Source: Pegea sp. RAD2-039 (taxonomy: Eukaryota > Chordata > Thaliacea > Salpida > Salpidae). Taken from it: 64,000 bases of DNA. Below the pieces are notes generated by a model. That model saw only the letters and a list, made by a program, of their open reading frames with translations. It did not search any database and had not been told where the DNA came from. Positions 15,757 to 55,195 of the stretch are shown one piece after another. Both the position numbers and the translations under genes were made by a program. Location of the stretch: the NCBI GenBank assembly GCA_034620365.1, contig JAQGEQ010000363.1, forward strand, positions 2,232,001 through 2,296,000, written 5' to 3'. The stretch's first letter is position 1. Every line of letters begins with the position of its first letter.

Positions 15757-15765
15757 CTTTTATAT
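15757..15765 (-). promoter_or_regulatory. TATA box (ATATAAAAG), secreted-protein gene B
   Basis: Identical to the element of copy A and at the same distance from the ATG. Confidence 0.6.
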
Positions 15766-25264: not shown

Positions 25265-25905
25265 CTAAGACCTCATCAGAATACTAGTAGCAGTAGATGA
25301 TGTCAGAGTGTTTGTGTATGCAGATGATATCAATCTATTATCTTGTAATCCTTCAAAACTTCAAACTGTACTACACACTGTAGAAAACTGGTTTACGAAG
25401 TGGCAGCTCAGAATCCAGTACACAAAGTCTGAACTTATAACTTTTTCTCGTAAACCAGCTGTAAATTACTTGAACCAATACTCCATCAATAGATTTATTA
25501 TTCAACGAGTATCTTGGCATTACTCTATCATCTGACTTTAAATGGCACAGTTATGTTTCCAAAATCTTTGAAAAATTAATCAACCTTGTCTTTCTTATTA
25601 CAAAGACCCTTAATTCGAAGGACCCACGTTTTTTATCAATCTTTTCAAATTGTACGTACGTCCAATTCTTGAATACAATGTCAGTGCATGGATGCCATAT
25701 CAAGTTAGTGATATCCAAAAAATTGAATCTGTTCAGGCCACATTTACAAGATTAGTATGCAGGAAACTTAATATTAATTATGATAGTTATAAACATCGTC
25801 TCAGCTTCTTCAATTTAGGTACTTTGGAAGTTTGACGATTTAAATACGACTTAATTCTTATTTTCAAAATCATCCTCAATTTAATTGACCTTCAAATCTA
25901 ATTGA
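25265..25905 (+). mobile_element. LINE fragment (RT palm to C-terminus), broken
   Basis: It reads DDVRVFVYADDINLLSC with an intact YADD box, then NWFTKWQLRIQYTKSE. After a frameshift it reads YVRPILEYNVSAWMPYQVSDIQ. It keeps the middle part deleted from the copy at 20.8 kb, and lacks the 3' stem-loop. Confidence 0.88.
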
Positions 25906-26213: not shown

Positions 26214-29200
26214 TTAAAATCTCTTCTTCTGCAGGGAAGGAGGAGTCTTCTTCCAACATGCCGAGCTAGTTCGCTTTATATATCTTCCTTCAGTTTTATT
26301 AAACAGCTTTGTCAGATCAACCGATCTATTTTTAGTATTTCGTAAGATTGTAGCGATATTAGGAGGATGAATATGTTGCAAAAACATCTGGCGTTTCAAC
26401 AACTTTCCTGAAGCAGAAAAGTTGAAAATATTTCTAGAAAATAATCTCGAGTACCTTTCGCCCAATTAGGAACAGTTTTTCTGGGAGCATCTTCATCATC
26501 AGTACTATCATCTGAATTGAGATCATAGATATTGTAATCTTCATTAGTTGATGGAAGAAGTACTCGATCTTCATGTTTTGGTGTCATATCGTAGCTGCTG
26601 ATGTTTGATTCATCCTTTTACAAAACAACCAATCAAATGACGTCATTTCAATCAACTATAAGTTACCTTGTTGTAAGTTGTATTCATCTTTTCTTCTTTC
26701 TGTCGAAGTTCTTCTTCTCTTTTTGCTGATTCTTCTTCTCGCCTTTTCATTTCTTCTTTCTTCTTCATCAACATCACTTCTTCTTCTTTCTTCTTCTTCA
26801 AGATCCATCTTTCTTGTTGCTCTTGCGCCAGTCTCAACGCTTCCTCCTCCTTTTTCAATCTTTCTTCTTCCATCTTTAATCTTTCCGCTTCTTTTAACTT
26901 CTCTTCAGCTTCTTTTCTTTTCCGTTCAGCCATTTCCAGCTTCTTGGCTTCCATCATCAATGCACGTTCCTAAAATAAAAATTAACCAACCATCAGAAAC
27001 CGGGTAACAACCATCAAACACCAGCTAACAACCAGTAAACCATACATCAAACACCAGCTAACAACCAGTAAACCATCCATCAAACACCAACTAACAACCA
27101 GTAAACCAACCATCAAACACCAGCTAACAACCAGTAAACCAACCATCAAACACCAGCTAACAACCAGTAAACCATCCATCAAACACCAGCTAACAACCAG
27201 TAAACCATCCATCAAACACCAGCTAACAACCAGTAAACCATCCATCAAACACCAGCTAACAACCAGTAAACCATCCATCAAACACCAGCTAACACCAGTA
27301 AACCAACCATCAAACACCAGCTAACAACCAGTAAACCAACCATCAAACACCAGCTAACAACCAGTAAACCAACCATCAAACACCAGCTAACAACTAGTAA
27401 ACCAACCATCAAACACCAGCTAACAACCAGTAAACCAACCACCAAACACCACCAAACACCAGCTAACATCCATCAAACACCAGCTAACAACCAGCTAACA
27501 ACCAGTAAACCATCCATCAAACACCAGCTAACAACCAGTAAACCAACCATCAAACACCAGCTAACAACCAGTAAACCAACCATCAAACACCAGCTAACAA
27601 CCAGTAAACCAACCATCAAACACCAGCTAACAACCAGTAAACCATCCATCAAACACCAGCTAACAACTAGTAAAGCAACCATCAAACACCAGCTAACAAC
27701 CAGTAAACCATCCATCAAACACCAGCTAACAACTAGTAAACCAACCATCAAACACCAGCTAACAACCAGTAAACCATCCATCAAACACCAGCTAACAACC
27801 AGTAAACCATCCATCAAACACCAGCTAACAACCAGTAAACCAACCAACAAACACCAGCTAACAACCATCAAACACCAACAAACACCAACTAACAACCAGT
27901 AAATAATTTTCTGACCTGCATTTTCTTCATTTGTTTTTCTCTCTGTTCTTGACGAGCTTGCAATCTTCGCGCTTTATCTAATCGCGCTTGTTCGCGTTTT
28001 TCTGCCATCTTCATCAGCTCATCTTTTATCTGCTCTTCTTTTATTCGCTTTTGTTCTAATTTCTACAAAATCGAGAAGTTTAATGACGTCATCGGCTACT
28101 ACGTCACACCTTTTCATCAGCTTCTATTTTAGCGCGTTTCGTTTCTTCTTTTTGATCGGGTCCTTTTCGCTTCTTTTTAGCCGATTCCAACATTCGTTTC
28201 CTTTCTTCAAATCTCACCTATACTACATCATTATCATCGCGCGTCTTATGACGTCATCAAACCTTTTGCTCCTCCTCTTTGAGATTTTTCTTTTGAAGTT
28301 CTTCAGCGCGCTTCTGATCATTCAACTCGCGATTTTTGTTACACTTTTTGAAACGCTCGGCGCGTCGCCTAGCAACAACAGGGTCAGCGATACGAAGTCA
28401 ACGATGACGTCATCGACGCACTGTTTGGCTTCGGCGATAGCGCGCTGCTTGTCTTCTTCAATTTGCTTCTTCACTGCAGCCTGCCTCTTCGCCTTCTCTT
28501 CCAGTAGTCGCGCTTTCTGTTCCGCTTTGCTCTGTGACGTCATCAGTGGTGATCTTGTCACGTGATTACAACAAATTACAATTTGAGGTTTCTCTGGAGT
28601 GTTGCGTTGAACAAACGATCGGATGATGTTGCTATTTGCAGCTGCTGTCTGACGATCGACTATTCGAACAGAAGTGGCGGAAGTTGGAGTCGCGGGAAGC
28701 CGCCGAAGTCTGCTTTGACCAGTCGAACGGTTCAAGAACGACAATGTGCTTCGCGGCTTTGTGTTGCTACTGGCCGGAGTTAGACATTTGCGTTGAGTCT
28801 TCTTAATTGGAGTGATGTAGCCCTGTACCGGATGAAGTTAGTTGATGAAGATGAAGAGATGATACTTCCCGAGAGAATTTGATTCCCGCGTAAAAAAGTT
28901 GTCTAAAATTTCGCGCCAAAATCAGCCAATTAGCAAATACTTACTCCTTTAGATGTGTAACCACGTACTGGAGTTCCCTGTAAAGAGTGGTAGTTAGTTG
29001 TGACGTCATCAGATGACGACATATCTCACTATTTGCATGCTGTTCGAGTTCTTCCTCAATTTGAGATTTTTGCGAGCTTAAAAAATAAAGATCAGATATA
29101 TTTGGTGATAAAAAAGATTAAAATACAAACATCCAGCAACTGGAGGCTTCTTCTTAGATTTAGGGATCACTTTTTTGAATGTTGAAGTGCTTGGAGTGTC

Positions 29201-32086
29201 TTGACCCACAAATGGTCGATTCTGGGGCACTTGACCTTGGTCCTGGACCGCTTCAGAAACGACTGAAATAATCTATTTGATTAAAGAAATAAAATTTGAG
29301 AAAATACCATTTTTGTTGTCATCTTCATCATCAGAAGTTTGATATTCATCGATCTCATCTTCCTACAAATAAATGAGATGAAGAAGTTGAAAGAGTAGAA
29401 GAAGATGATCTTCACCTTGATGATCTTCATATTCGCTCTTCCTCGAGCTACTGATGCTTTTACTCGATTCTTATCAATTGAAATCTGTTTTTTTGCAGCC
29501 AAACCTAAAAGATGTTGAAGAAAATCAAAATTTAAATCCTTGGAAGTAGAAGAGGAGGAGAGAGTCGCCAAGAATCTACAAATTAGGAAGAAGATCAGTT
29601 TAAAGATGCTTGCTCACCAGAAAGTTTTCTTTTCGATTTTCGTGAGCTTCTTCGAGCTTGCTTTGCAGCAGATCTAGTGATTAAAAAAGAAGACTGAAGC
29701 GAGTTGATTAGAGGAAGAAAAGATGTAGAAAGTTCAACTCGTTAAGCAAACTTGCTTTCATGATTATAAAATGTCAGATTCAAGTAGATAAAGTGACAAA
29801 AACTGACCTCCTGGGTAGAGATGTTTCCTCAACTTCCAAATATTCCTGCAATGAAAATTTAGAAATGATGAAGATATAAGATTGAAGATCAACTCACTGG
29901 AGGAACTCTATATTGGCGAGAAGACTCAACATAACATACATTGTTTTTTGTCATATCCACAAATACTTTTCTGTTAACCATATCCTTCATCTTCACTGAA
30001 AAGTATTCACAGTAAGATGAACTAGTTCTTACAAGAGAATAATTATTGAAGTAGTAAAAGGTTTTAAATCTCACAGAACTTTGTAACATTTTTTTAATAA
30101 ACATTTTGAATTTACTTCAGCTCAAACATATCAACTTTTTCTTACTTCGATCAACAATAGATTTAATAGTTTCTTTCCTAGAAGACTTCAATAAAACAGT
30201 TCTTCTTTTATCATGATCATCATCAGATAGATGGAATGAAGAGTCATTAAGGTCATCATCATCAGAAGAAGTATCCATAGCAACATCGTCCTTAAAAGAT
30301 GAACGTAAATCTTCCTTTTGGAGTTTATCTCGGGAACTTTTGTCTTTTGTAGAAGGATCAGTTGAAACAATAGCTTCATCAGTATGTAAAGATAAATCTT
30401 CTTCTTTATCAGAGTCAACTGAATCTTCTCTAGTACCAGGAGCTTCAGAGACTTTATCTTCTTCAACAGGATCAACAGAATCATCTCTAATTTCAGGCAA
30501 TTCTATGATTTGATCTTCTTCAACAGAATCAATTGAATCTTCTCTAGTAACAGGATCTTCAGAGACTTTATCTTCTTCAACAAGATCAACTAAATCTTCT
30601 CTAATTTCAGGCAATTCTATGATTTGATCTTCAACAGAATCAACTGAATCTTCTCTAGTATCAGGAGCTTCAGAGACTTTATCTTCTTCAACAGGATCAA
30701 CTGAATCTTCTCTAGTAACAAGATCTACAGAGACTTTATCTTCTTTATCAGCCTCTTCTTCGAGAAGTATGGATGAAACATCTTGAGGTAGAATCGAGAT
30801 ATAATCATTTCTTATCAGAGTACTATTGGCAATATTACGTTTCTTCGAAACTGGTGAATCCTTTAAAACATTGAAAGTATAATCAAAATATTTCAAATAT
30901 ATTTAACTGAAACATGTCAAAATAAACATTCTTACTTTTTCTCTTCCAACTTTATTCTTTCCAACTTTATTCTTTCCAGCTTTATTTTTTCTTCTTCTGG
31001 ACTTCGTACTAACACAAAAAGAATTTAAAATAATAAATCATTGAACAATCAACTAATTTAGAAAAAAAAATTGAGTAAAAATATTTTATTATATTTATTA
31101 TTCATAATTATTATAATATTTAAGCATAAAAATAAAAGCTATAAAAAATTGTTTCAACTTTTAATAATTATTTCTTTTATTTTCAACTCTACATTAACAA
31201 ATGAAAAAGAGATATATAATGAAATTACTTAGTGTCTTGAAAATCTTCATCACTTTCAATCAGACGTCTTATTTGAGAAGTGAAGTTTGAGCTACTGGCT
31301 ACACTTGTATAAAGTTCATTGTTTTCATTTCTATCATAATCATAAAAGATTGAATGATGATTACTTAGTTCAAATTTAAAAACCAAATTGAATATAAGAT
31401 ACAAAAGTTTTGATGCTGTTTGATAAGCTAAGATTATTATAAAGTTTATAGAGCTACCAAATTTAAAAAGAAACATCAACTCACAAAACTGTTCTCTTTC
31501 TTTTACATCTTCTTGGTTTTCCAGGAGTTTTACAAATAGGTTTACTCAACATCACCTCGTCAGTATTCTCCAAGAGTTCCTCCTCATTTGTTGTGATATT
31601 TTGCTCTAAAAGTTCTTCTTTTGTTCTCACAATTAACCCTCTCTTGATTCTATCAATAAATAACAATCAAACTCACAACAGTAACTTAACTAACTATTTA
31701 CAATTCTTTTGTTTTATCAGCATATAATGCTCTCAAATCAATAAGAGCTTTCTCTCTTGCTCTATATATATCATCAAAAGCCTCAGGATATATAAGAGTA
31801 TCTCTCAAGGAGCATTCTGAGGGTTGATACAAGACTCCCTGATGAGGATCAAACTCTCTAGAAAGTAAAATGTAAATGTTTAAAAACAAAATAAAATTTA
31901 AACGAAAAACTTTGAAAGTTTAAAATAGAAATGTTTTTAAGACTAATAATAATAAAACAAATTATAGGAATGATATGAAAAGATGAATACTAACTTGAAA
32001 ACTAGTTGATAATGTTCCAACTTATAACAATTTTCTCTAGTTTTCCATAAACCAATAGCAAGTCCTTTCTTTGGACCACGTGGCAT
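26214..32086 (-). CDS. INCENP: Inner centromere protein (about 1073 aa, ~22 exons)
   Basis: INCENP scaffolds the chromosomal passenger complex and activates Aurora B through its C-terminal IN-box. Exons from the start: 32086-31995, 31857-31702, 31649-31485, 31330-31229, 31008-30936, 30860-30146, 29995-29898, 29845-29808, 29673-29618, 29504-29416, 29362-29308, 29262-29131, 29076-29030 (doubtful), 28977-28945, 28822-28580, 28531-28422, 28368-28263, 28217-28110, 28062-27916, 26969-26667, 26614-26455, 26407-26214. Exon 6 encodes acidic tandem repeats (EEDKVSEAP, TREDSVDSV, IIELPEIR). Exons 16-20 form a long charged helix rich in Glu, Lys and Arg, matching the SAH/microtubule-binding region. The C-terminus has DLNSDDSTDDEDAPRK, PNWAKG, HIHPPNI and GRYIKRTSSACW. 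The last carries the TSS site that Aurora B phosphorylates in known INCENPs. The basic KTPGKPRRCKRKR segment near residue 130 resembles the human N-terminal region. The first exons are the least certain. Confidence 0.92.
26985..27903. repeat. 33-bp minisatellite in INCENP intron
   Basis: About 28 copies of a unit like CAACCAGTAAACCATCCATC plus AAACACCAGCTAA fill the intron between exons 19 and 20. Because 33 is a multiple of three, the minus strand reads as an open GLLVVSWCLMV repeat. This is a by-product of the repeat, as flanking splice sites and phase place it in an intron. Confidence 0.95.
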
Positions 32087-33129
32087 TTTTAAACCTTTTA
32101 AAAAATTAAAACTTTAACAACAAACCTGTTAATAACCTAAAAATGAAAATGTTACAATCAAAGCTCTACTTGAGAAACTGTTCAAACTTGACAAAAGCTA
32201 AAATAGAACAAAAATTAGAAATAAAAATGATTTTTATAATTTATTTATAAATAGATAAAATTTAATATATTAAAATGTAAATTAGATTTTTTAAAATATG
32301 AAAAAATTGATGAAATAGTAACTTCATTAGAATAATAAATAAACAGAAATAAAAATTAAATAAATAAATTAGTTTTCACATCATTTAAAAAATGTTTAAT
32401 TATGGAAATTTAAAAAATAAAAATATAATAGATAATAAATTCATAAAAATTGAATTAAAATAATATCAAAGATAAAAATAAAAAAAATGTAAGAAACAAC
32501 TCACTAAATTATATAATATAAAAAGTTTTATATATAATAAAAAGTAATTAGCGAATTCTTTAAAATTGTTAGAACAAAAAATAAAAATAAAAAATAAAAT
32601 TGTATCAAAAAAGAGATTTAAATAAAAAAAATCTTTTTTTCACAATAAAAAAAATATTTAATATAAAAATAGAATAATCGTTTATAAAACCTTAAAATTT
32701 TAATAGAAAAATTTCTAGGAAAAAAAATATAAATAACTTGAAATTTTATTGTATGAAAAATCTAACTTTATCTAATAATAAAAAACTACTTTAAAAATTC
32801 TTTAAAATTGTTGATACAAATCATGAAAAAATCGATTAAAAATAGATTTTAATTTAGAAAATAATTAAAATTGGTTTATCGCAATGAAACATATAAAAAA
32901 AAATCATCTTATTAAATGTAGTAAGCGATAGAAGTAGAATTTAAATAACCCGGGTTTATTAGAAAATAATAACAAACTTTTCAGTATTCGATCTTCAACT
33001 TTAAACTAATATTCTAATTAAATTGAAATATTGTAGAAATTTTTAATCTTAGTACTTTATTGCATAAGCTATTATACTAAATTTCAAAATATATAACATA
33101 AAACAAACGTTTCATACGTCTTCTGAAAG
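32087..33129. other. Extremely AT-rich region upstream of INCENP
   Basis: Mostly A and T with homopolymer runs and no gene. It must contain the INCENP promoter unless further 5' exons exist. Confidence 0.55.
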
Positions 33130-33832
33130 AGTCTACTTTCATTCAAGATCTGACAGAAGTCTTTTCAATGCATCACGTCTAAAGACGATCACCAATCTAT
33201 GAGCTACTTTTTGCCGATGACGCAGTAATTGTTGCACATTCAGCAAAATAACTAAAGATGCTGATAGACCTATTTTTATCAGCCTGCACAGGCTTTGGAA
33301 TGAAAATCAGCCTAAAAAAGACAAAAGTTCTCAGCCAAGGTGTTAACGCTCCACAGCCAATCAACATCGAAAGCTGGGACGTTGAGGCTGTAGATAATCA
33401 CATCATCAGTATCAATAGAAGCCGAGATCAGCAGCTACATCAGTAAAGCATCTGGTGCATTTTCATGTTTTACTTCAAGGGTTTGGAATAATCCAAAGCT
33501 ATCTATCAAAATCAAGGCCGCCATCTATAGAACCTTTGTCTGATGTACAATATTGTACGCAAGCGAAACTTAGACTTTGTCGAAGGAAAATAAACACAAA
33601 ATCTTTCATTTTCGGTAAATATCAATAGCAATTGGGAGTATATCGCTCCAAATAGCGCTCTCCACAAACAACAGAAAGAGAAAGAAAAAATAGATTCAAA
33701 GAAAAGGAAAAACCCTAAAAACTTTTAGCTTCTTTGGATTTCACTGTGTTTTGCTTTGCTTTTAATGATGCATGACCGTTCTCGGTAGAAGCAGGTCATT
33801 ATTATTAAAGAAAGAAAGTAAATAGAGCTCTT
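33130..33832 (+). mobile_element. Second LINE family, RT fragment (FADD box), broken
   Basis: The frames read LLFADDAVIVAHSAK, then LIDLFLSACTGFGMKISLKKTKVLSQ, then FTSRVWNNPKLSIKIKAAIYRTF, with stops and frameshifts between them. The order (FADD box, ISLKKT, TSRVW, IKAAIYR) is typical of the RT C-terminal half of non-LTR elements other than the YADD-type family above. A possible 3' end with inverted repeat TGACC/GGTCA near 33771-33797 and a TTATTATTAAAGAAAG tail follows. It is non-functional. Confidence 0.75.
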
Positions 33833-35169
33833 CAAATCATGAACCTTTCTTCACCTTATAAGAGAAATTACAAGCCTCTCCTGATTAGTAAGTAAAAAGT
33901 CCCATCAATATCTGCGACGACTTTGCATTTGTTCGAAGCGGAAGTTCTATCATAGGTCTCAACCGTTTCAAATCGAGTTTAACTTGATTTCTTTTCAAAT
34001 AACAACTCAAGAAACAAATCTGGTTTAATCCATGTATTGTTTTGGACTTGTTTACAGTCATTTTCCTGTCTCTGATCGATTTTTAAAAACTTGTAAAAAG
34101 CTGCAGTTCATTCAAAGAATTGGGTCTAATAATGTCACTGCCAAATATTTCAAATATTCTTGAGCTGATCCTTTTTCTATAAATTCAGTCATTATCCTTT
34201 AAAATACTACAAGTAGAGTTGCATTAAACTGTAATAACGCCCAGACTTAAAAGTCATAAACTTCTTATCTTTCTTTCGAGTCTTCAGAATTTTTCTTCCA
34301 GTGACGCCATTTATAGCTGCAGACGGACTATTTAGTAAAATTTATTTACAATAAGCAATTTAAGAAACTAAGTAACAGGCAGCAATTTGCAGAAAAAAAG
34401 TTTAAAAATTAAATTGTAACTCTTTAACAGAGCTTTACACCATTATAACTGGAGCGCCGCATTGACTTTAATTAACCCTAAAATAAAACTGTAGACAAAA
34501 CAGTAAGATTTTAAATAACTAATTAGAGCTTTATAATGACATTTACGTATGTGGTATTGTAGGGTAATCTTTTTTAGATATCTCATTACTTTCCGTACAT
34601 TTAAAACTAAAACAAGTTTCATTGTTTCAATCGTATCTTTAAATGTTTGCTTTATGTGAATTAATACTTGATCTTTTTCAAAAGATTTAGTCTAATGATA
34701 AGTAGAAAAATATCTTTAGTTTGAACTGAGATGAACTTTAAATTATTGACTACATATATTTCAAATTATTAAACAAGTTTTGAGTACCGTTTAAAAGTAA
34801 ATTTACAATAAATAGAAAAATGTATTGTTTATTTGTAATAATGTGTTTAAGTGTAAATTGAGATGAGAAACTATTCCTTATAAGTTCCACAAACCTCATT
34901 ATAAGATTTTATTTGCTACTGGCTGCTGCTGTGATATCTGCGTGGATGTGAAGACTCTGAATTGTCTATAAGTAGGATCGCAACTGCGGCTTCAAAATAT
35001 CATCTTTCCCTACTATCACTTATAAGACTTTTAGAGATGCATTTTAGCAAACTTTCATGCAGTAATTGAAAGATTAAAAGTTTGGTAAGATCAATGTTTT
35101 TATTTTATGCAATTTATTCAAATACTTTTTGTTTGATTTATTACAGCATATATCATTTGAAAGTCGGGA
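33833..35169. other. Intergenic, possible old repeat debris
   Basis: No gene is recognised. Base composition is less extreme than in neighbouring gaps around 33.9-34.3 kb and 34.9-35.0 kb, suggesting decayed inserted sequence, but no identifiable domain remains. Confidence 0.4.
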
Positions 35170-35325
35170 ATTCTATTCCAACATTGTCATTTCTAAACTT
35201 TGAATTTTTCTCTTTCTTATATTATTAACATTCCATGTAATTGTTCACTGTTATATGCTTTGAGGGCTATCGAAATACTATTTGACATCTTTTCTAATTT
35301 TTCGCTGTATTATAATAAAAGAAAC
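35170..35325 (+). mobile_element. LINE 3' UTR fragment
   Basis: Matches the 3' UTR of the YADD-type LINE copies (AACATTGTCATTTC, then CTCTTTCTTATATTATTAAC, then GTTATATGCTTTGAGG). The terminal stem-loop is missing. Confidence 0.75.
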
Positions 35326-36290
35326 TTTTCAAATAGTCGTTGGTTTCTCAGAAACTGGATTCGAAATGTTAACTGAGTCTCACAAGCAAGTCAGAAAAAT
35401 GCAGAAAATTTTATAAATTTGTTAAAATCCAAAAGTTTGACAGTTCTATAAGAAAAAAGATATTTTGAAACATCAAAATTCTTTTTCTTCAAATCTTCCC
35501 TCTCATCTTACAAATGGTTTGCGACTAGCATTAAATTTGTTGAGGTCCATGGATAATATTAGGACTAGAGGTGGTTTTGAGGCTATGGTCATGATTTATT
35601 CAATGATGTTGAAATGCTTCTAAACTTTATTCTTAAATCTGAACTGGGCTCTAAAGAGAGCTTCTTTAACTGTAGAAGACACAACAATCCTGCAAACATT
35701 AATCGGGAGAAGAGTTAGTTTTTGTGCTTTAAGTAGCTGGATTCATTCTGAGTACTGAGCGAATGTTCCAAGGTCTTCACAGTAAAGTATCATATAGGGG
35801 TTTCCCCGACAACACCAGTAGGTTTATCATATTTGAACTAGCTGATTGCTTTCTCCTCATTTCTTTAATCATTTGTCGTTTGGAATAAGAAGGAATATAT
35901 GTGGCAGACTGCGCGCTGAAAAGTGATGAGATCAACATTAAGTAAGTTTCCGAAGAGGTTTAAACGATGAACGAAACCACCCTTTGAATAATGAATAAAA
36001 CCTTCGGTGGTTACAAGTGTCTGCTTGCAACTGGCTTTTCTTAGCAAGCTTATTCTACCAGGGGTTCTACATCATTAGAATTCCCGTGGTAAGGGACACG
36101 TGGTACGAAATGTTTCTTTGTCAGTGGACAATTTGACCTGGTGGTCATTTCTTTGCTGGTTCAAACTTCTCGGGCGTTTGCGTCAAACCAAATCTTTAAT
36201 GTTATTGACAAGACGAAGTTTTGTGTAATAATTTTAGCAAAGTAAAAAAGTAATCTCTTAACGGGCCTTAAAAAAAATAAAAAAAGAACA
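35326..36290. other. Intergenic, no gene assigned
   Basis: Short open frames only. The 60-codon minus frame at 35865-36047 has mixed composition and sits among likely repeat debris, so I do not call it. The last 20 bp hold the T-run terminator of the tRNA pair. Confidence 0.4.
36270..36285 (-). terminator. Pol III terminator of the tRNA pair
   Basis: On the minus strand, two T-runs lie within about 5-20 bp of the tRNA-Ala 3' end. No T4 run occurs between the two tRNAs. Confidence 0.6.
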
Positions 36291-36362
36291 TGGAGATGCC
36301 GGGGATCGAACCCGGGGCCTCACACATGCAAAGCGTGCGCTCTACCACTGAGCTACATCCCC
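36291..36362 (-). tRNA. tRNA-Ala (TGC)
   Basis: The gene is 72 nt. The acceptor stem GGGGATG pairs with CATCTCC (one G-U), the discriminator is A, and the anticodon loop TTTGCAT reads alanine GCA codons. The A box (TAGCTCAGTGG) and B box (GGTTCGATCCC) are intact. No intron; CCA is not encoded. Confidence 0.97.
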
Positions 36363-36366
36363 ACTA

Positions 36367-36448
36367 CGACGAGGATGGGATTCGAACCCACGCGTGCAGA
36401 GCACAATGGATTAGCAGTCCATCGCCTTAACCACTCGGCCACCTCGTC
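36367..36448 (-). tRNA. tRNA-Ser (GCT)
   Basis: The gene is 82 nt with a type II long variable arm. The acceptor GACGAGG pairs with CCTCGTC, the discriminator is G as in serine tRNAs, and the anticodon GCT lies in loop CTGCTAA. The B box GGTTCGAATCC is intact. Only 4 bp separate its 3' end from tRNA-Ala, which is downstream in transcription. Confidence 0.97.
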
Positions 36449-37293
36449 GCTTCAGAAAGTTGATTTAAGTTTTATTTCAACCTAAATTTGACATTGACTT
36501 TTACAAGAGACAATTTTTTGATGTTTTTTAGAGAATATTTTTAAAATATCAATATTTCGAATGAGGTGGTGTCACCATTAACAAGATGGATGCTCAAAAA
36601 ATCACTTTCAAGAACTCAATTCCTAATTCTCAACATAAATTTACATCAAGCTGTTATTTGATTCAAAATCTGATTGAAATTTCAACTTGAAAAAAATTTG
36701 AGTTGCATCTACTTGTCGTGAGATCAGCAAACAATTCCATTGACATCTAGATGAGCTAACTTGCTAATAAGTCTTTGATGTGCCTCAAAAGATCCGTTTG
36801 CTTGATAGTTTGTCGAGGATGTAGTAAATATTATATTTTTATTACTTTGCTGAAGGTAAAAAATTTGATAAAGATACAATTACTTGAAGTTTCTATATTT
36901 TTCTAATTTAACATGAATCTAATGATTTTATTTAATTATTCCTCTAAGGAGATTTAAACAGGTTGATGGCGAGGTTTACAAATATTGATGAAAGCAAGTG
37001 GCGACTGAAGCACCTTAAATTAAGGAGCCGACTTTTAAATAATCAGACAAAATTGAAAAGTTGGAAATTTAATAATTTAAAAGACAAATAAATATCTTCG
37101 CTTATTTGTATAGTTCACATATTCACTGTTGATGACGTCATACAGGATGAAAAATGAAAAAAAAGATCAATAAAGAAGCTAGATAGAGAAGCGATGACGT
37201 CACAAAGCTGTCAATCAAGTCTTTGCATAGAGCAGCTTTACCTTTAGGTGATAGTAAGTGCAAAAAGAATAAAGAAACGCGATTTTTGTGACG
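36449..37293. other. Flippase 3' UTR and intergenic
   Basis: AT-rich, no coding region. The right-hand 170 bp hold three TGACGTCA palindromes and should be the 3' UTR of the flippase gene. Confidence 0.5.
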
Positions 37294-40200
37294 TCATACA
37301 TGTGGTTGGTCACGCGTTGATGACGTCATAGAAGATTCCGATGCCCATGCATCCATTTTCGGCTTTGGTGGTGACGTTTTAGTAATGACGTCATCATAAG
37401 TAACATCACGTGACTGGTATAGTGCTGACGTAGTACTAGGGCGATTAGGAAGCGGCGGTGACGTCATCGAAGTGACGTCATCATCGATGTTGTTTGAAAA
37501 CGAAAGATTGTCGTGACCGGTTGCTGATGACGTATTTGAGTCTCTAATTACGTCATCAGCAGTAGAGTTGTTGTTGTTGCTGTTGTTAGTGGATGACGTC
37601 ATCTGACGATCGAAGAGGTGTTGAGGTCGAGGAATGAAGTCATCAGTGAAAAGTGGATTTTTGAAAGTTGGAGGTTTCGATCCTGAATTTCTGAAAGATG
37701 AGGATCTCTTGGATGTTGAAGATCTCTTGGATGCTGCTGGTTTATTGGATGATCTTTCGGATGCAGAAGATCTTTCCTTTTGACGTTCACGTTGACATTC
37801 CGTTGGAAAAAGATCAGTTTGAAGAGATCGAATCACAAATCTGTAACAACAAGATCAGATGATGTCTCCTGGATGCTGCTGTTACCTTGGCAACAAAGCA
37901 ACGATCGTCGTGATGATGATGGAGAACCAGAAGGTTGGAGTTTGGATGACTCGCTCCATGACGTAATAAGGATTACTGGGAGGAAGACAAGCCGGACATA
38001 TGATGTTGTAGATGAGAGCAAACGCAAAGAAACCAACTAAACTCAAACACTGTCCAGTCCAATGTATCCACGTCTGTACATGATATGACGTCATCAAGCA
38101 AGCAGTGACGTCATCAGCACTTACCCAGGTCTTGGTTTCGATTGCCAGGTGCAGAAGAATGACAAATACGGAGCAAGTCGTCACCACAGTTCCCCATTCG
38201 ATCAAACCAACATCAGAATCAAAGTACGCCTGCAAGCATAAGAAGCGCTCACGTGACTGCTTCACGTTCATGACGTCATACCGCGTAGATGAAGAAAAAG
38301 ATGATAAGACTTTGATAGATGGCATCAGCGATGTTGATCCAGAAGCTTCTCGGTCGGTAGATCTGTAAGCGTGACGTCATCAGTGATTTAATGATGACGT
38401 CATCAGTAGTCTCACCTCATCTTCCACTCCTTGTTTGTAGAGATGAGGTTTTTGTAGAAGAGTATCTGATCTGAGATCTTTATCAAAGACTCCGTTGACG
38501 AGAGGAGGAAATCCGGTGATTGTAAGATTGAAGAGGAGAAGATACATTTGCTCAATCATGTTTGATCCGGAGAAACCACAAAGAAGTTGGAACCAGAAGA
38601 TGAGGAAGACAAAAGCCTGCATCAGAGGATGAAGATCAGGAGATGAAGATCAGGTGATGAAAATCAGATGATGAAGATCAGAGGATCAAGATCAGAGGAT
38701 CAAGATCAGAGGATCAAGATCAGAGGATCAAGATCAGAGGATCAAGATCAGGTGATGAAGATCAAGGGATGAAGATCAGAGGATCAAGATCAGAGGATCA
38801 AGATCAGTGGATAAAGATCAGATGATGAAGATCAGATGATGAAGATCAGATGATGATCAGAGGATAAAGATCAGAGGATCAAGATCAAGGGATAAAGATC
38901 AGATGATGAAGATCAGGGGATGAAGATCAGAGGATGAAGATCAGAGGATGAAGATCAGGGGATCAAGATCAGGGGATAAAGATCAGAGGATGAAGATCAG
39001 GTGATGAAGATCAGATGATCAAGATCAGAGGATCAAGATCAGGGGATAAAGATCAGAGGATCAAGATCGGGGGATCAAGATCAGGGGATAAAGATCAGAG
39101 GATCAAGATCAGAGGATCAAGATCAGGGGATCAAGATCAGAGGATCAAGATCAGGTGATGAAGATCAAGGGATGAAGATCAGAGGATCAAGATCAGAGGA
39201 TCAAGATCAGGTGATGAAGATCAAGGGATGAAGATCAGGGAGATGTTCCAACTAACCGCGTTTTTATAGAAGAAATACAAAACCATGGAAGCGAGACGCG
39301 CGTAATTCCAATGTCCGTGAACCAATAGAAGTTTACGAAGAAATCGAAATTGCGCGATCGCGTAATCGCTGCTCATCACAGCTTGCATCCCTTCCTGACC
39401 ACTCAATCCAATTCCAACATCCGCGACTTGTATCATACTGACGTCATTAGCACCATCACCTACGTCATCATCAACGTCATCAACTACTCACAACATCATC
39501 ACGCCACCTACCGATCGCTAACGTCATCACGTGTAGCTGATCGCGAATCAACTTGACGACTTCACCTTTCTGTAGCGGTGTTGCCCGGCAACAAAGCACC
39601 GAGCGACATTTACGAGCAAGTCTCACAAACTTCTGATGTAGATCCTTCTGTAGCGCGAAGCCAAGCGTTCGTCCATCAATGACAAGCACTACAATGGAAT
39701 GATGACGTCATGACGACGCGAAAACGCGATTGAACTGACCTAGAGCAGGAAGTGAGTTATCAGCGAGTGATGAATAGGAGGTAGGTTTCAGTGAAAGATG
39801 TCTCATCACAAAACTGATCCTTGAATCCTCATCTTTTCCTCTTCTCTCTTCTTGATGCTTTATGTGAGTATCTAACAACTTCTCAAATGACTCCTGTAAC
39901 CAACCATTAAATCGCGCTGTTGCTAAGCGACACTGATGACGTCACACCTTATTTTCTGACGTCAGCACGATGACTTCATCATGTTGATGTATTAGACGAC
40001 AAGAGTAACCGATATTAACCGCCGTTTCCTGTTTGTCGCCGGTCACCACCCAAACTTGCATCCCTGCCTGCCTCAGCGACTCAATAGTCTCTGGGACTCC
40101 TTCCTGCAACCGATCTTCGATTCCAGTTGCCCCTAGCAACTCGAAATTCGTCTCGATGCGTTGAAACGATTCCATCAGCTTTTGTTCGCGGTTTTCGAGC

Positions 40201-43200
40201 GCGCTTTCTGCTTGGCGGTGTTGTTCCAACCAAGTCAGATACTCCTCTTCACTCAGCACCTGAACAACCATCATTAGTGACGTCACAAACGCGTGAAACA
40301 TCGCCACTAACTCGCTTAGCCATACAAAGAGTACGAAGTCCCTGATGAGCGTATTGGTTGAGAGCTTTCTTAGTTCGTGAAATCACTTCCGGTGAGTTGC
40401 TCTCTAAACGCGAAAGATCGCCACCAGGAGGCGCTGTAAGAAGGCAGATGACGTCATCGCTTTTATGTGAAGTCATCGAACCTCTCTGGTTGTCGCTAGA
40501 GGGCGCGAGAAGTGACAAGATCGCGGAATCGGCGCCTTTCGAATAAATGATAATCTGTTTCCGGCGAAGATCCCTCACCACTACTGACATCCGCTTCCGG
40601 TTTGAATCAAATGTGAGTGTGTGTAGCACCTGTGAATACGCGTTGATGACGTCATCACAACATGTAGAGACTCACTTGAAATTGAATATTATGATTGTGA
40701 GGTGATAATGAAAGAGTGACAGTTTCTTGGGACCCTTGGATACTACGATGAGCAAGGACACATCCGTAAGCGCGCGCTGCATACACGAGAGCTGCTTCAT
40801 CTGGTGATTCAGCTTCGTATCTAATCTCTTCTTCCTCATTTCTTTCAACCGATGTCTTCCTATCATTTAAATCAACATCTGTTTGCTGAGTTGTGACGTC
40901 ATACGTTTTAATAGCGACGTCACTGGGAGAATTAAATGAGCGGCAATTGGGAGCATCATCCGTGGTAGGAGTGGTTCGAGGTGAAAGGTCAAACATCGAA
41001 GTCAATTTGTAAGTTCCTAACTTGCGCTGAAATTAAACAAATTGCTATAATCGCTACTAGGTAACAAATAAATAGTTGCTAGGTAACAAATATATGGTTG
41101 CTAGGTAACAAATACAAAGTTGCTAGGTAACAAATACATAGTTGCTAGGTAACAAATACAAAGTTGCTAGGTAACAAATAAATAGTTGCTAGGTAACAAA
41201 TATATAGTTGCTAGGTAACAAATACATAGTTGCTAGGTAACAAATACAAAGTTGCTAGGTAACAAATACATAGTTGTTAGGTAACAAATACATAGTTGCT
41301 AGGTAACAAATAAATAGTTCCTAGGTAACAAATACATAGTTACTAGGTAACAAATACATAGTTGCTAGGTAACAAATAAATAGTTGCTAGGTAACAAATA
41401 AATAGTTGCTAGCTAACAAATAAATAGCTACTAGGTAACAAATACATAGTTGCTAGGTAACAAATAAATAGTTGCTAGGTAACAAATAAATAGTTACTAG
41501 GTAACAAATACATAGTTGCTAGGTAACAAATAAATAGTTGCTAGGTAACAAATACATAGTTACTAGGTAACAAATACATAGTTGCTAGGTAACAAATAAA
41601 TAGTTGCTAGGTAACAAATACAAAGTTGCTAGGTAACAAATACATAGTAGCTAAATAACAAATAAATAGTTGCTAGGTAACAAATACATAGTTGTTAGGT
41701 AACAAATAAATAGTTGCTAGTTAACAAATATATAGTTGCTAGGTAACAAATACATAGTTGCTAGGTAACAAATAAATAGTTGCTAGGTAACAAATACATA
41801 GTTACTAGGTAACAAATACATAGTTGCTAGGTAACAAATAAATAGTTGCTAGGTAACAAATACAAAGTTGCTAGGTAACAAATACATAGTAGCTAAATAA
41901 CAAATAAATAGTTGCTAGGTAACAAATACATAGTTGTTAGGTAACAAATAAATAGTTGCTAGTTAACAAATATATAGTTGCTAGGTAACAAATACATAGT
42001 TGCTAGGTAACAAATAAATAGTTGCTAGGTAACAAATACATAGTTACTAGGTAACAAATACATAGTTGCTAGGTAACAAATAAATAGTTGCTAGGTAACA
42101 AATACAAAGTTGCTAGGTAACAAATACATAGTAGCTAAATAACAAATAAATAGTTGCTAGGTAACAAATACATAGTTGTTAGGTAACAAATAAATAGTTG
42201 CTAGTTAACAAATATATAGTTGCTAGGTAACAAATACATAGTTGCTAGGTAACAAATAAATAGTTGCTAGGTAACAAATACATAGTTACTAGGTAACAAA
42301 TACATAGTTGCTAGGTAACAAATAAATAGTTGCTAGGTAACAAATAAATAGTTGCTAGCTAACAAATAAATAGCTACTAGGTAACAGATATACAGTTGCC
42401 AGGCTAATTCCTAAATATCTAGCAAGCAAAGAATATTTTTTCTAAAAGTGAATAGCCAAATTCATGCAAATTAAATTTTTTTTTACTTTAATCAATTGAC
42501 TGACGTTGGTCAAAGGTGTACTTGGAGTCGAAGAAAGTTTTTGCTAAAACAATAAAAGGAATTGCTAAGCTGCACTAAAAGCTCATTTAAAAGCTAATAA
42601 TTAATGAAAAATTAACACTAAGATTAACAAAAATACATCTACAAACAGATACATCTACAAACAAATACATCTACAAACAGATACATTTACAAACAAACAC
42701 ATCTACAAACAGATACATCTACAAACAGACACATCTACCAACAGACACATCTACAAGCAGGTACATCCACAAACAGATACATCTACAAACAGATACAACT
42801 ACAAAAAGATACATCTACAAACAAACGCATCTACAAATAGATACATCTACAAACAGATACATCTACAAACAGATACATCTACAAACAGACACATCTACAA
42901 GCAGATACATCTACAAACAGATACATCTACAAACAGACACATCTACAAGCAGATACATCTACAAACATGTACATCTACAAACAGATACATCTACAAACAG
43001 ATACATCTACAAACAGATACATCTACAAACAAATACATCTACAAACAGATACATTTACAAACAAACACATCTACAAACAGATACATCTACAAACAGACAC
43101 ATCTACCAACAGACACATCTACAAGCAGATACATCTACAAACAGATACATCTACAAACAGATACAACTACAAAAAGATACATCTACAAACAAACACATCT

Positions 43201-46200
43201 ACAAATAGATACATCTACAAACAGATACATCTACAAACAGATACATCTACAAACAAACACATCTACAAACAGATATATCTACAAACAGATACAACTACAA
43301 ACAGATACATCTACAAACAAACACATCTACAAACAGATACATCTACAAACAAATAAATCGACAAACAGATACATCTACAAACAGACACATCTACAAGCAG
43401 ATACATCTACAAACAAATACATCTACAAACAGATACATCTACAAACAGACACATCTACAAACAGATACATCTACAAACAGATACATCTACAAACAGATAC
43501 ATCTACAAACAAATACATCTACAAACAAATACATCTACAAACAGATACATCTACAAGCAGATACATCTACAAACAGATATATCCACAAACAGATACATCC
43601 ACAAACAGATATATCTACAAACAGATACATCTACAAGCAGATACATCTACAAGCAGATACATCTACAAACAAATACATCTACAAGCAGATACATCTACAA
43701 GCTACAAGCAAATATTGAAAAAAGCTCACATCAACTTCGGGCTTCTGGTTATGATCTTCATTTGAAAGTACTACAGTGTTACAAATTGCCAAGTTGATAA
43801 AGAAATCTAAAACTCTGCGTTTCTCTTTACTAAGTTCAAATGAAATATCATTTGGTATTTCAGACATCGTCGAAGTAGCAATCATCTTGGACGGAATACT
43901 CGCTAGATGTCGATAAAGAACAGGATCAGGTGTGACGTCAGTCGCCTTCATAACATAAGATGATGATGACGTCACAACAAGCATCACTTACTAGATCTTC
44001 AATAGCGAGATCGACAGTATCATCATCATTACCATGTTCATTTGCATTTGTCGCGTGAACTTCACGAGCAGACACAATACTCATATTACGACGATGATGT
44101 GAAGCTGGTCTTTTTGTACTCACCTGTCACACAACAACGTTATCGGTTGTCATGGCAACCGATGAAAACAAAAACCGGCGTAGATAAAATTTAAGATTTA
44201 TTTGTAAATACAAAATATGATGTCATCGTTGACATCACGATGTTTATGACGTCATCACTAACTCGATGTGCTCTGATGGGTAAAGCTGGTGAGTTTGGAA
44301 GTGATTTAGAACCTATTTGGACTCCACCATTTGCTTCTTTCATTGATTCTTCCTGATCTCGATGTTGATTTGATGACGTCACAGCATGACTAGAAGGTCT
44401 AGTGAAGATACGCATTAGTGATGACGTCATCAGTAGTACAAATCACCTCTGACGCAATGATGAACGACGTGATCTTCTCTTTTCATTCAAACTTCTGCGA
44501 CTCAAACTATCCAGGTGATTTGGATCTAAAAGATTTAAATACAAGACGAACCAATTAACTTAGCAACTAATCAACTTAGCAACCAATCAACTTAACAACC
44601 AATCAACTTAGCAACCAATCAGCTTAGCAACCAATTAACTTAGCAACCAATCAACTTAGCAACCAATCAACTTAGCAACCAATCAGCTTAGCAACCAATT
44701 AACTTAGCAACCAATCAACTTAGCAACCAATCAACTTAGCAACCAATCAACTTAGCAACCAATCAACTTAGCAACCAATCAACTTAGCAACCAATCAACT
44801 TAGCAACCAATCAACTTAGCAACCAATCAACTTAGCAACCAATTAACTTAGCAACCAATCAACTTAGCAACGAATCAACTTAGCAACCAACCTGGATGCA
44901 TCGACGCAGGAGTTGGTTCGCAATTTTCGATACGAGCAGCTAGAAATGATAAATTTATCAAACTCACATCATCAAGTTGTCATAGCAACCAACCATTAGC
45001 AGCATGTGGGTAATCTTGACCACCAACAGTACATCTTTTAAAAACCATTTTATTTTCAGTTAAGGTTCCAGTTTTATCGGAGAAAACATATTGAATCTGC
45101 CCCAGGTCCTCAGGTATATTTAAGGCACGACAAACCATGGGTGTATTTGATTCATGATGATATAATTCGATGTCGTTGTTGATCATGTACACTTGTGCCC
45201 ACTTGACCACCTCTATTGACACATATAAGCTGATTGGGATGAGGACCTGGGATCAATTGATTAGATGGATGAAGGGGATGAGGACACTTACTTGAAGTAG
45301 AATGACCATGGTCCAAAACATGAAAAAGCCAGAAAGGGCCGGGTCCACTGTGTTTCCTGAAGTGTCACGTGGTATGAAGAGTTCTGTTTGTGGTACAGAA
45401 GCTTTAATTCCAGCCCAGATTCCATTTCCTGAATAAAATCAAGATATTTTTAACAAGTTTGAAAATTTGATGTAATTTCTGAGTAAAAAGTTTGTGAAAT
45501 GGAATAATTAACGACAAAGTTACCTATTGCGCCAATTAAACACATGATTATCAACATGGCCACACAATAGATGATATCTTTGTTCATCTGTCTTTCTAAT
45601 TTACTTCGTTTATATCTGAAAAGTTTAATATTTAACTGAAGTTTGAAAAACCATAAATTTTGTGGCTCAACATTTAATTAAAGATAAGAATTTTTTACAT
45701 AAAAGTCATAAAAAACAATTAATTAAAATCTAAATTACTTTAACTATTATTTTAGATTTATTAATAAATTTATTTCAATTAATTTCCTTTTTTTTTTAAT
45801 TATAAATTTGGTTTATTTTTTTTATAATAAAAAAATTTAAAATTTGAAAAAGTTTTAAACATTTTTTAATTTGAAAAAATAGTGAAATAATTGAAAGTTT
45901 TCAAATGAAAGTTGATTTCTTCAAATAAGTAATAAAAATTTGAAAATTAATTTCGAAAATGGACTTGAACCTTGGTCCGTTGTTATTCAACATAGCCTTG
46001 GTTTCATGACCAGCATAAACCACTATTCCCTCAACGTAATCCGTGTTCCTGATCACGCATCCTCTAAGGAGCAGATTGAGATTGTTTACAGGGATTTTAT
46101 CATCTCCATCAGGAGGGATTCTGTAGATGAAGAGTGAAGATGTGAACTTCTGATGTTGGAATTAAAATAAAAAGAAATTTTTTTGTGAGAAACAAACTGA

Positions 46201-49200
46201 GAAGTTGAAGCAACAAAAATAGAACAAATAAAACGTGGAAAGATGGAAATATGGGCTAAAGTTGAGATGACGTTAAAGTTTGGCTTATAAACCTGATTAA
46301 TTATTAACTAAAATAAAAGATTTTGTAATTGCTTTTACACTTGCTTCTAAATTATTGATCAAAATTTGGTGTTTTGAAAGTTGTTACATTTTAAAAACAA
46401 AATGAAACATAAAATGTGTTTAATCACGTGATTAGAAGACATAAAATTGATGAGAAGATATCAAGATGAGACTCAAGGATTTAAAAATTGACGGAAAAAT
46501 TTAAAAAATGTCTTTTTAATTTCAACTAAAAATTAAAAACTTTACAAAAATCAAAAAATTTTGGAATCACTGAAGCAGAAACGACCAATCAGAAGCAGAG
46601 ATTGATAAAAACGAGAAGTAGGCTTACATGTTGCCATGGAATTTGTAGATTTCATTGTTAGGTGTTTGGCATTCGATGATGCTTTTAAATTTCTCAGGAC
46701 TGAAGTTCTCCTTCTATAAAATGACGACGTCATCAGTGACGAAATCGAAACGTAAATAAAAACAGCGCCACCTGGTGATAATCTCCGTGTCTTTTGACGA
46801 CAACTCTTTGCTTTAAATTGCTCTCTCCATCAATGTTTGAAGTCTCAATGAAACAGACTCCGTGATGATCCGAGGAGTGAAGAAGAAGAAGATCTGCTGG
46901 GATTATGGAGTTACAAGTGACCCGGACAATGTCCCCGACTTGCAGTTGGGACCAGCGGACTTTGTGGTACTTTTCATCTGAACTATGAAAGGATTTGAAG
47001 ATTAGAGAAGTTTATAGAAGTTGTTTGAATAATATTTGTTTTTCTTTTATGATTCAGTTTAGGTTTTGGGGTTTGGTTTCATTGAAAAGTTTCCAAATTT
47101 CAATTTTATGAAATAGATTTTGAAATTTATTTAAATTTTAAACTAAAACTTTTACGCGGAACTTCTTTTTCTGTTTAAATATTTAGCTAAAAATTGTTGA
47201 GTTTCACTTGTTAAAAATCAAAAGAAATAATTTTGATCGAGACGTCTTTACACTTGAAAATTGTGTTTTCACGCTAAGTGTTTCCAAGCAAAAAATATAA
47301 AATTTCGTAAAAAAGCTTTTAAGCTCTAAGCTCTTAAATTTGTTGTTTTAATATTTTTCCTTTAACTGCTGAAAATAAAACTACACTTGAAAAAAATCCC
47401 TTCCTAAAATACTTTTCAAATTTGATGCCTTGACAGCAAAAAATGTAATTTCTGCAAACTCCTACCACCAGCCAATCACGTGACTAATACCTGGAGTAAA
47501 TTTCGCAAGCAGCACCATTAACTTCGCCATCATTTCGTCTTCTTCCATAATCTTCAAATAAATCTTTAATAGCTTGAACAGCTAAGATACAAATAACGGG
47601 AATCATAGACACAAACGGTTGTATAGCACTAATTTGTGGAACAAAGTTTAGGAGGATTATAAAAACAAAGTAGATATTAGCAAATCTGTGAAACTGTTCA
47701 AAAAGATTCTTTGGTAGGAACGATAAGGCCGTGTATTTGGTGGTTTGGATTCGATTTTTTGCATAGGAGTTTTGTAGCTTTTTAATTTGTTTTAACTTTT
47801 CATTTGCATCTACAATTGAATCGCTACTTAAAAGGAGATTTGAGCATAAGGTTCTAACTTTGTGTTCACTTCGTATTCGTCTGAAACAAGAGATATATTA
47901 GTATTAGATCGATTAACAAAAGGTGTCATGCGTTACAATTTACAATTTATTACTTACTCAATTCCATAAAGAAAGCTTTTAAATAATAGACAATAGAATA
48001 AGCTTATTTGTGTTTGTTTAAGGTTAGATATTACTAAAGATATATGTAACAGAAGAATTGCTATGAAAGGTTTGAAGATATGAATTTTGATTTTATAATA
48101 GAACATATGATTAGAACAAAAAATTAGGAATTTTATGTATTTATTGAAGAGTCTTTTTACTGTTTCAAACTTTCATTGTCTAGAAAATAATTAAAGTAGA
48201 AAGAGGAACTTTGGTTAATATTTAACTTTAAAAAAACAACAGTGAACTTTACAAGCAGTTAATCAAAGGGAACTAAAAATTAGAAACTAAAAAAAGAAAC
48301 TCTGAAGTAAATATGGAAATTTTCTCACCTTTTTTTAAAATGTAATAAATCTTGAAAAGCAGTTGATTTTCTAAAACTAGAGTGAGCTATACCATCTGAA
48401 ATTTGAACTTCGACTTGATCATAATAATTATTTTCTGATGAAGTCTCAACATTTTCATTTAAAGCAGGAGTGTTCATTATTAAAAAAATTATAAAAGTTT
48501 GGGAATAAATTAAACTTCCACAATGACAAAAAAGTTGTTAAAAAGTTCTGTAATATAAATACTTCTAAACTTTCTACCTTCTCATTGACTATTAAAAAGA
48601 GTTTTTTTTAATATAGTTTTAATTTTATCATTTTCTAACTCCATAGATTATCAGATAAAATATTAAAACTTTCAAAATATGTCATAAAAATCAAACAATT
48701 TGGAAATTAATTTTGATTACCATCAATATAAAACAAACAATTTACCAACAATATAAAACAAACAATTCACCAACAATATAAAACAAACAATTCACCAACA
48801 ATATAAAACAAACAATTTACCAACAATATAAAACAAACAATTCACCAACAAAAATAGAAAAGTTGATTTGGAAAAGAAGCTATCTTATAAAAAGATCATC
48901 AGACTTGAGGTAAATTGATATTTGATAAAATGATGAAAATTTGCTGATACAATATATTAATTAATCATAATATTTAAATAGTTATGACTATTTAATAAAA
49001 AGACAAAAATAAAATAGCTTTTTGTTTTTTTTAGCTTTTAAAATGATGTAAGATTAAACAATTAACTTTATGATCAAGAATTTGGATTATTTAGCAAATA
49101 TTTAAAATAGTTATATTTTTAAAGTTGACAGAAAAAAAAAACTAATATACAAGTAGTTTATTTATTTAGTGACTAAAATAGAAATCAAAATCATAAAACA

Positions 49201-51750: not shown

Positions 51751-51815
51751 TTTACTTAACAAACTCTCTATAAAATAAATATTGTAAAAAATTTTATATT
51801 TTTATTTAGCTTGTT

Positions 51816-54800: not shown

Positions 54801-55195
54801 AAACAGATACATCTAAAAACAGATACATCTACAAGCAGATACATTTACAAGCAGATACATCTACAAACAAGTACATCTAAAAACAGATACAACTAAAAAC
54901 AGATACATCTACAGACAGATACATCTACAAATAGACACATCTACAAACAGATACATCTACAAACAGATACATCTACAAATAGACACATCTACAAACAGAT
55001 ACATCTAAAAACAGATACATCTACAAGCAGATACATCTACAAACAAGTACATCTACAAACAGATACATCTAAAAACAGATACATCTACAAACAGATACAT
55101 CTACAAACAAGTACATCTAAAAACAGATACATCTAAAAACAGATACATCTACAAACAGATGCATCTACAAACAGATACAACTAAAAATAAATACA
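51816..55195. repeat. 3.4-kb 16-bp minisatellite (ACATCTACAAACAGAT)
   Basis: More than 200 units of the same 16-bp sequence as at 42633-43710, with variants (AAGTAC, AAAAGC, ACTTCT). A marker (GCAGACACTTCTAC) at 51957 and 52117 shows 160-bp higher-order blocks. The array begins about 70 bp upstream of the distal flippase ATG, in the likely promoter/5' UTR region. Confidence 0.96.

Follow-up and report, generated by a model that had tools for sequence, protein, structure and literature searches.

Why should a single exact palindrome of eight bases be crowded into two neighbouring genes of an animal? The question is raised by a stretch of 64,000 nucleotides from the salp Pegea sp. RAD2-039 (GenBank assembly GCA_034620365.1, 105.7 Mb in 387 contigs), namely positions 2,232,001-2,296,000 of contig JAQGEQ010000363.1 (C21), which is called the window here. 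The word under study is the 8-bp palindrome TGACGTCA; its 14-mer form is TGATGACGTCATCA. A preliminary description of the window reported 32 exact copies, confined to two neighbouring genes. The count is exactly 32, from 26638 to 44422-44429, and the window is otherwise free of the word. The confinement holds inside the window, where the copies lie in the genes for INCENP and for a P4-ATPase flippase, but not genome-wide: the assembly contains 27,792 copies, so that the accompanying suggestion of a multiplying motif is borne out at genome scale. The tentative answer developed below is that TGACGTCA may be an iterated binding site for a basic leucine zipper (bZIP) dimer.

Base composition does not account for this abundance. 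Dinucleotide shuffles of the window (n = 100) gave a mean of 0.60 copies and a maximum of 3, and the reversed word, which has the same composition, occurs only 969 times in the genome. The 14-mer TGATGACGTCATCA has 1,972 genomic copies and its reverse none. A sample was taken as 13 stretches of 10 kb chosen regardless of the word (L005-L017; 20 were requested and seven contigs were too short). Here TGACGTCA stands 11.8-fold above a third-order model and tops the over-represented 8-bp palindromes with at least 12 copies, the runner-up TATATATA reaching 3.1-fold. In 207 kb of tandem-masked sequence, which includes three stretches picked for high density (L018-L020), 128 copies compare with 1.5 expected under a trinucleotide model, an 86-fold excess; the next palindromes, present in 3 to 16 copies, are at about 12-fold. 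The dense stretches also form part of the 128-site logo, the arm test, the comparison of GC near and far from sites and the spacing analysis described below, and tandem arrays were masked for the logo, the arm test and all GC work involving these stretches. The preliminary description would have been undone by a uniform density or by a full explanation from local dinucleotide composition. The second is contradicted by the shuffles and the trinucleotide model, and the first by the patchiness of the word: the mean density is 0.26 per kb in the genome and 0.50 per kb in the window, all 31 copies of the word-independent sample fall in six of the 13 stretches (15 of them in one), and the highest density noted is 45 sites in 10 kb (L020).

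The form of the site offers the best clue to what reads it. In the logo of the 128 sites outside tandem arrays, T (0.60) is preferred at -3, G (0.48) at -2 and A (0.71) or G (0.22) at -1, with the mirror image on the 3' side, whereas T occupies -1 in 0.4% of arms; the consensus is T-G-A, TGACGTCA, T-C-A, and the logo is flat from -4 outward. It had been proposed that the word is maintained for its palindromic form, for example as a hairpin in pre-mRNA. However, self-complementary arm pairs at offsets 1, 2, 3 and 4 number 73, 49, 57 and 33 against 71.4, 44.0, 54.2 and 32.3 if the arms were independent. Because a hairpin or cruciform would demand covariation of the arms, and mirror positions vary independently, neither is supported; the independence argues against a need for base pairing and suggests a protein dimer, each subunit of which would read one half-site. 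The flank preference would be just what a DNA-binding dimer gives. Sites of bZIP proteins of the CREB/ATF/JUN kind have a purine at -1, a pyrimidine at +1 and independent half-sites, as found here. Further, the core TGACGTCA is the textbook CREB/ATF site, the cAMP response element (CRE), and the 14-mer with the preferred arms is presumably the optimum of JUN/ATF/BATF-type (BATF3/JUN-type) bZIP dimers.

The excess is also sharply centred on the exact word. The four classes that make up its 24 one-letter neighbours number 9,103, 3,063, 3,680 and 21,279 genome-wide, their reversed controls 8,117, 5,199, 3,379 and 11,004, and only the last class, TGACHTCA, which holds the CpG-loss forms, is clearly above its control. 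In the 207 kb the CpG-loss class is 1.9-fold over the trinucleotide model, compared with 86-fold for TGACGTCA. Such loss can be seen directly in one sampled stretch (L012), where one of five tandem copies has lost its site by a change of CG to CA.

Candidate readers are encoded in the genome. There are 12 matches to bZIP exons, all over the cut-off. A bZIP-like basic region was recovered by pattern in two of the 12 loci (L027, L029), and JUN, ATF and BATF genes are therefore not named individually in this genome. The DNA-methylase family has 11 matches; seven of these lie in long open frames (832-873 amino acids) on C57, C249, C32 and C52, and a split match lies on C49. A second palindrome, TCACGTGA, is likewise in great excess: it has 4,614 copies genome-wide, whereas its reverse has 237, and it stands beside TGACGTCA in two introns of the window (28579-28532 and 38281-38230). 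The mixed word TGACGTGA, built from halves of both, shows no excess (1 copy against 3.0 expected in 207 kb), and two readers are therefore likely.

Where do the copies lie? Both marked genes of the window are on the minus strand. INCENP (26417-31545, its 5' limit set by an open reading frame only) was recognized by the ARK-binding region PF03941 (E 8.4e-8) in exon 26614-26417 and by coiled-coil exons at 26652-28837. The flippase gene (37080-47932), whose exons were read by hand, was recognized by PhoLip_ATPase_N at 47487-47897 and by PDB alignments (best match E 1.7e-83). By these hand-built models the 32 sites comprise 19 in short introns, 10 in codons, one over a stop codon and two downstream. 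In INCENP, sites occupy 26638-26645 (intron 26666-26615, 52 bp), 28084-28091 (28109-28063, 47 bp), 28249-28256 (28262-28218, 45 bp), 28405-28412 (28421-28369, 53 bp), 28535-28542 (28579-28532, 48 bp; 3 bp upstream of the 3' splice site, with TCACGTGA in the same intron) and 29001-29008 (29029-28978, 52 bp).

In the flippase gene, the intronic sites are the pair starting at 38086 and 38106 (38086-38113, intron 38124-38074, 51 bp), 38271-38278 (38281-38230, 52 bp, with one TCACGTGA), the pair starting at 38372 and 38395 (38372-38402, intron 38415-38363, 53 bp), which had been described correctly as two copies in one intron, 39703-39710 (39739-39689, 51 bp), the site at 39937 (39947-39917, 31 bp), 40278-40285 (40311-40260, 52 bp), 40449-40456 (40481-40434, a 48-bp in-frame intron that is inferred), 40647-40654 (40675-40630, 46 bp), 43967-43974 (43991-43946, 46 bp), 44247-44254 (44262-44124, 139 bp) and 44422-44429 (44446-44399, 48 bp). 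Codons carry five sites in a disordered-looking C-terminal tail (starting at 37321, 37386, 37459, 37473 and 37594; 37321-37601), one at 39439-39446 in the codons AAT-GAC-GTC-AGT of the conserved GDGANDVS motif, one at 39957-39964 (VLTSEN), one at 40894-40901 (TYDVTT), one at 43933-43940 (ATDVTP) and one at 44374-44381 (HAVTSS). The TGA of the word at 37289-37296 is the flippase stop codon, and the copies at 37133 and 37195 (37133-37202) lie downstream of it, in the 3' untranslated region or beyond. A promoter-type placement was not found in gene models in which starts are not mapped: the 5' parts of INCENP (about 30.1-31.5 kb) and of the flippase gene, whose sites are restricted to the part below 44.45 kb, are free of the word, and sites reach the 3' end. 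The preliminary description was right that a CRE spread through introns, coding exons and a 3' end is unlike a promoter element.

Introns are the favoured location. Of 20 delimited introns in INCENP and the flippase gene, 17 contain a site, with 19 sites in 1,133 bp (16.8 per kb), whereas the coding parts of the same segments have 9 in 3,978 nucleotides (2.3 per kb), a tenth lying at a segment edge. The proportion is 10 of 13 in a tankyrase gene (L019) and 3 of 8 in a diaphanous-like formin gene, the eight being those that could be delimited rather than all. Intron limits were set by hand, and the positions of the sites were known at the time. The median intron length is 51 bp (33 introns), and the delimited introns are GT-AG. 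Several introns fall outside the 20 of the window and have no site: those filled with minisatellites (around 26.98-27.93, 38.62-39.25, 41.05-43.7 and 44.5-44.9 kb), an INCENP intron near 29.1 kb that is uncertain, and those introns of the flippase gene that lie above 44.45 kb. Similarly, the tankyrase list excludes one minisatellite intron at least, near 6.16-6.42 kb of that stretch and also without a site; the 13 count both paralogous copies of one intron. The distance of the site from the 5' splice site is spread over 3-48 bp, which rules out a splice signal at a fixed place. Genes identified in the stretches analysed are those for INCENP, tankyrase, diaphanous-like formin, integrin alpha and a PDZ protein, a set that would be expected of an animal. 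Several long single-frame open reading frames occur in stretches with 0 to 2 sites, namely for integrin alpha (L008), a WD40 protein (L013), a kinase (L014) and zinc fingers (L006).

Site-rich patches also differ from other sequence in composition. With sites and tandem arrays masked and the dense stretches included, GC is 0.373 within 400 bp of a site and 0.278 beyond 3 kb, and the observed/expected ratio of CpG is 0.95 and 0.63, respectively. The GC gap persists when CpG, TpG and CpA are left out (0.259 versus 0.188), and loss of methylated CpG alone therefore does not make it. Site density follows GC: it is 0.02 per kb where GC is 0.25-0.30 and 4.6 per kb where GC is 0.40-0.45 (the latter bin being five 1-kb windows). 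The GC content of fourfold degenerate sites (GC4) is 0.36 in the 3' part of the flippase gene and 0.41 in the 3' part of INCENP, compared with 0.16 in the 5' part of INCENP, 0.15 in the telomerase gene TERT and 0.11 in a G-protein-coupled receptor gene.

Minisatellites accompany the sites: in the window and the 13 sampled stretches, 9 of 14 lie within 1.5 kb of a site against 3.86 expected (p 0.003), the figure outside the window being 3 of 6. In the window, a 33-bp minisatellite of 27 copies (26987-27903, minus strand) lies inside an INCENP intron without a site, a 14-bp minisatellite of 44 copies (38621-39238, minus strand) inside a flippase intron without a site, and three arrays (41057-44890, minus strand) between flippase exons: 41057-42403 (22 bp), 42633-43700 (16 bp) and 44549-44890 (16 bp, with CCAATCA). 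The same 16-bp unit, of the ACATCTACAAACAG type, makes up both 42633-43700 (67 copies) and 51819-55196 (211 copies), the latter lying next to a second flippase gene, at its N-terminal exon (51088-51801). A core like GGTTGCTA is common to 44549-44890 in the window and to minisatellites on different contigs (L011 2364-3424, L015 5903-8163, L019 7778-8144 and L020 2225-2348).

One tract resembles the product of conversion. Two ankyrin units of the tankyrase gene (L019 6760-6957 and 5243-5440) are identical but for one mismatch over about 150 bp, a tract that takes in an intron and TGACGTCA, while their flanks have diverged; judged from this pattern, recent gene conversion or copying is its likely origin. 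The GC of synonymous sites and this single tract are compatible with recombination without proving it. No allelic copy that would allow haplotypes to be compared was found for the flippase piece 37900-38560, whose single match in the genome is itself. Site spacings under 27 bp (27 of 131) arise partly by local tandem duplication, and no inference was drawn from them.

The explanation tentatively preferred for these observations, which may still turn out to be wrong, is that TGACGTCA is an iterated site for bZIP dimers of the CREB/ATF/JUN/BATF kind, which would mark gene bodies and keep them open and free of CpG methylation. The word would accumulate in the bodies of a subset of intron-bearing genes, chiefly in introns of about 50 bp; bound bZIP dimers would hold the gene body in open, CpG-unmethylated chromatin; and recombination, more frequent in such chromatin, would give rise to the raised GC and the minisatellites of the patches as side effects.

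Several findings weigh against this explanation. Under methylation CpG decays, and a plain lack of such decay predicts lower TpG and CpA; the observed/expected ratio of TpG+CpA, however, averages 1.19 where sites are dense and 1.12 where there are none. It is thus not lower, which argues against a simple unmethylated island. The 5' part of the flippase gene has no sites, yet its GC4 is 0.39 and the GC of its third codon positions is matched (0.380 versus 0.376), so that GC and sites do not always coincide. The sharpness of the word is not absolute, since four of 12 neighbour classes are 7.8-, 3.7-, 3.0- and 2.9-fold over the trinucleotide model in the 207 kb, with 6 to 18 copies each. The excess of TCACGTGA would need a second reader, probably of the basic helix-loop-helix type. 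The density of the richest stretch (L020) seems beyond what a chromatin mark needs. Finally, there are hints that sites go with intron-rich genes, but this is a tendency judged by eye and not a count.

Among the alternatives, a recombination system like that of the M26 hotspot of Schizosaccharomyces pombe is unlikely but has to be taken most seriously. A CREB/ATF-type dimer on ATGACGT(CAT) would open chromatin, breaks would form beside the site, and conversion would raise GC and breed minisatellites. The higher GC4 of site-bearing exons, the proximity of minisatellites and the conversion-like tract in tankyrase all fit such a system. In one version of it, breaks would avoid the bound site, the site-bearing allele would more often be the donor, and the word would spread wherever it is tolerated. 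By analogy, this would be the hotspot paradox reversed: the bZIP-bound octamer, shielded from meiotic breaks and preferred as conversion donor, would be driven into tolerant positions of recombining gene bodies, such as introns, tails and even conserved codons. The self-spreading word is the boldest of the ideas considered, and a distinctly improbable one. In the hotspot paradox proper, hotspot motifs are expected to be lost through conversion rather than added, and GC-biased conversion favours G/C over A/T positions, so that the word's four A/T positions could not profit from it. Further, the link to minisatellites is only 3 of 6 outside the window, the tract is a single case, and the flippase 5' exons are GC-rich without sites. 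The literature cuts both ways. According to the accessible parts of two papers (PMC9775316, PMC3534124), M26, ATGACGT, arose by point mutation inside ade6 of S. pombe, its 10-bp form ATGACGTCAT is very active, and M26 placed in budding yeast also makes a hotspot. The accessible text of one (PMC9775316) adds that visible breaks are lacking over about 70 bp around the site, but also that some CRE sequences are not hotspots, and that of the other (PMC3534124) states that natural M26 sites have no significant link to breaks in budding yeast. This last point and the TpG result slightly lowered the probability given both to the M26-like system and to the bZIP mark.

A function at the level of the intron is improbable. 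Selection would favour about one site per short intron, acting as DNA or RNA and aiding splicing or intron-mediated expression. In its favour, 23 of the 33 introns of INCENP, flippase and tankyrase have exactly one site against 13.4 to 14.9 under random placement (p 0.0003 to 0.0018). The test weakens to p 0.002-0.014 in short introns alone and to p 0.017-0.08 when formin is added, and it was made with limits drawn in view of the sites and with the site-free minisatellite introns excluded. In addition, 13 of the 32 window sites lie outside introns, the same genes also have introns without the word, the position within the intron is not fixed, and the arms lack the covariation of an RNA hairpin.

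Clustered CREs of the ordinary kind, which would serve genes regulated by cAMP or stress as enhancers or promoter elements and be numerous through a large effective population, are a doubtful explanation still. The identity of the core and the strong constraint on its sequence agree with it. However, the sites run through gene bodies to the 3' ends, INCENP and flippase lack them in their 5' parts, the number of copies is very high, and one site lies in the codons of a conserved catalytic motif. A functionless by-product of base composition or mutation bias is very unlikely: site density does rise with GC, but neither the 86-fold excess over the trinucleotide model, far above the next palindromes, nor the scarcity of the reversed word and the lack of excess of TGACGTGA would follow from it. 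Least credible, to the point of being negligible, is the idea that the word enters genes as part of a mobile element or of a family of introners, because although copies are many and often intronic, a few were made by local tandem duplication (L020 5342-5402 and 5520-5560) and one window pair (38388-38410 and 44415-44437) is identical in 22 of 23 bases, the introns by eye have only the word in common, the logo ends at -3, no site lies inside the listed repeats of at least 45 bp of the tandem-masked window, and introners are ruled out for lack of flank similarity.

Other features of the window can be noted briefly. A duplication of 3.5 kb (2118-5571 and 13096-16574, 96.9% identical) has no site. 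Telomerase reverse transcriptase domains (PF12009, PF00078) lie at 17595-19904 in one open frame of 769 amino acids. A dispersed family of diverged short repeats, about 77-96% identical and in both orientations, occurs at 11834-12130, 21236-21541, 25266-25829 and other places.

How does the iterated word compare with known systems? Searches of the open literature did not find the 14-mer TGATGACGTCATCA in the text of any paper, nor an earlier description of iterated TGACGTCA, as judged by title and start of abstract. Established CRE sites and the 12-14-bp sites of JUN/ATF/BATF bZIP dimers share the core and the flank preference; they differ from the present sites, which are not promoter-bound, in number and in intron placement. 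Periodic An/Tn clusters (PATCs) of C. elegans, as far as the available part of the source describes them, are a non-coding DNA signal tied to introns of a gene class and are said to prevent germline silencing of transgenes; they are periodic A/T runs and not a palindromic protein site. The introner elements of Amoebophrya likewise bring a palindromic feature into many introns, but in the accessible part of the report (PMC7789003) inverted repeats link one end of an intron to the other and the majority of these introns are non-canonical, whereas the introns delimited here are GT-AG and no sequence common to them was seen.

No genome with tens of thousands of M26-type sites is known to us. The ade6-M26/CRE hotspots nevertheless resemble the present sites in core and arms (ATGACGTCAT), with A at -1 in 71% of arms here and the core flanked by A and T together in 67 of the 128 sites, and in acting inside a gene; in the accessible text M26 is read by an Atf1-Pcr1 dimer (PMC9775316, PMC3534124). 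Hotspot activity was measured in yeast, whereas the salp sites are known from sequence alone.

The closest parallel is HIP1 of cyanobacteria, GCGATCGC. HIP1 is typically spread over the genome rather than patchy. The salp word shares the exactness and an abundance far above expectation (27,792 copies, where the reversed word has 969; 128 against 1.5), but not the even spread. The available part of one study (PMC4390886) describes HIP1 as a single exact 8-bp palindrome in great genomic excess, with a function that is unsettled and a tie to GATC and CGATCG methyltransferases. Unlike HIP1, the word described here belongs to an animal genome, favours introns and has a core, TGACGTCA, with the arms of a protein site. 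It can be counted, dated and mutated, which makes the question directly testable, and its genome is a natural setting in which to test whether biased conversion can spread a DNA word and whether short introns act as landing strips for chromatin proteins. If the bZIP reading is true, TGACGTCA would be, as far as the literature was searched, a eukaryotic counterpart of HIP1 with a recognizable class of reader.

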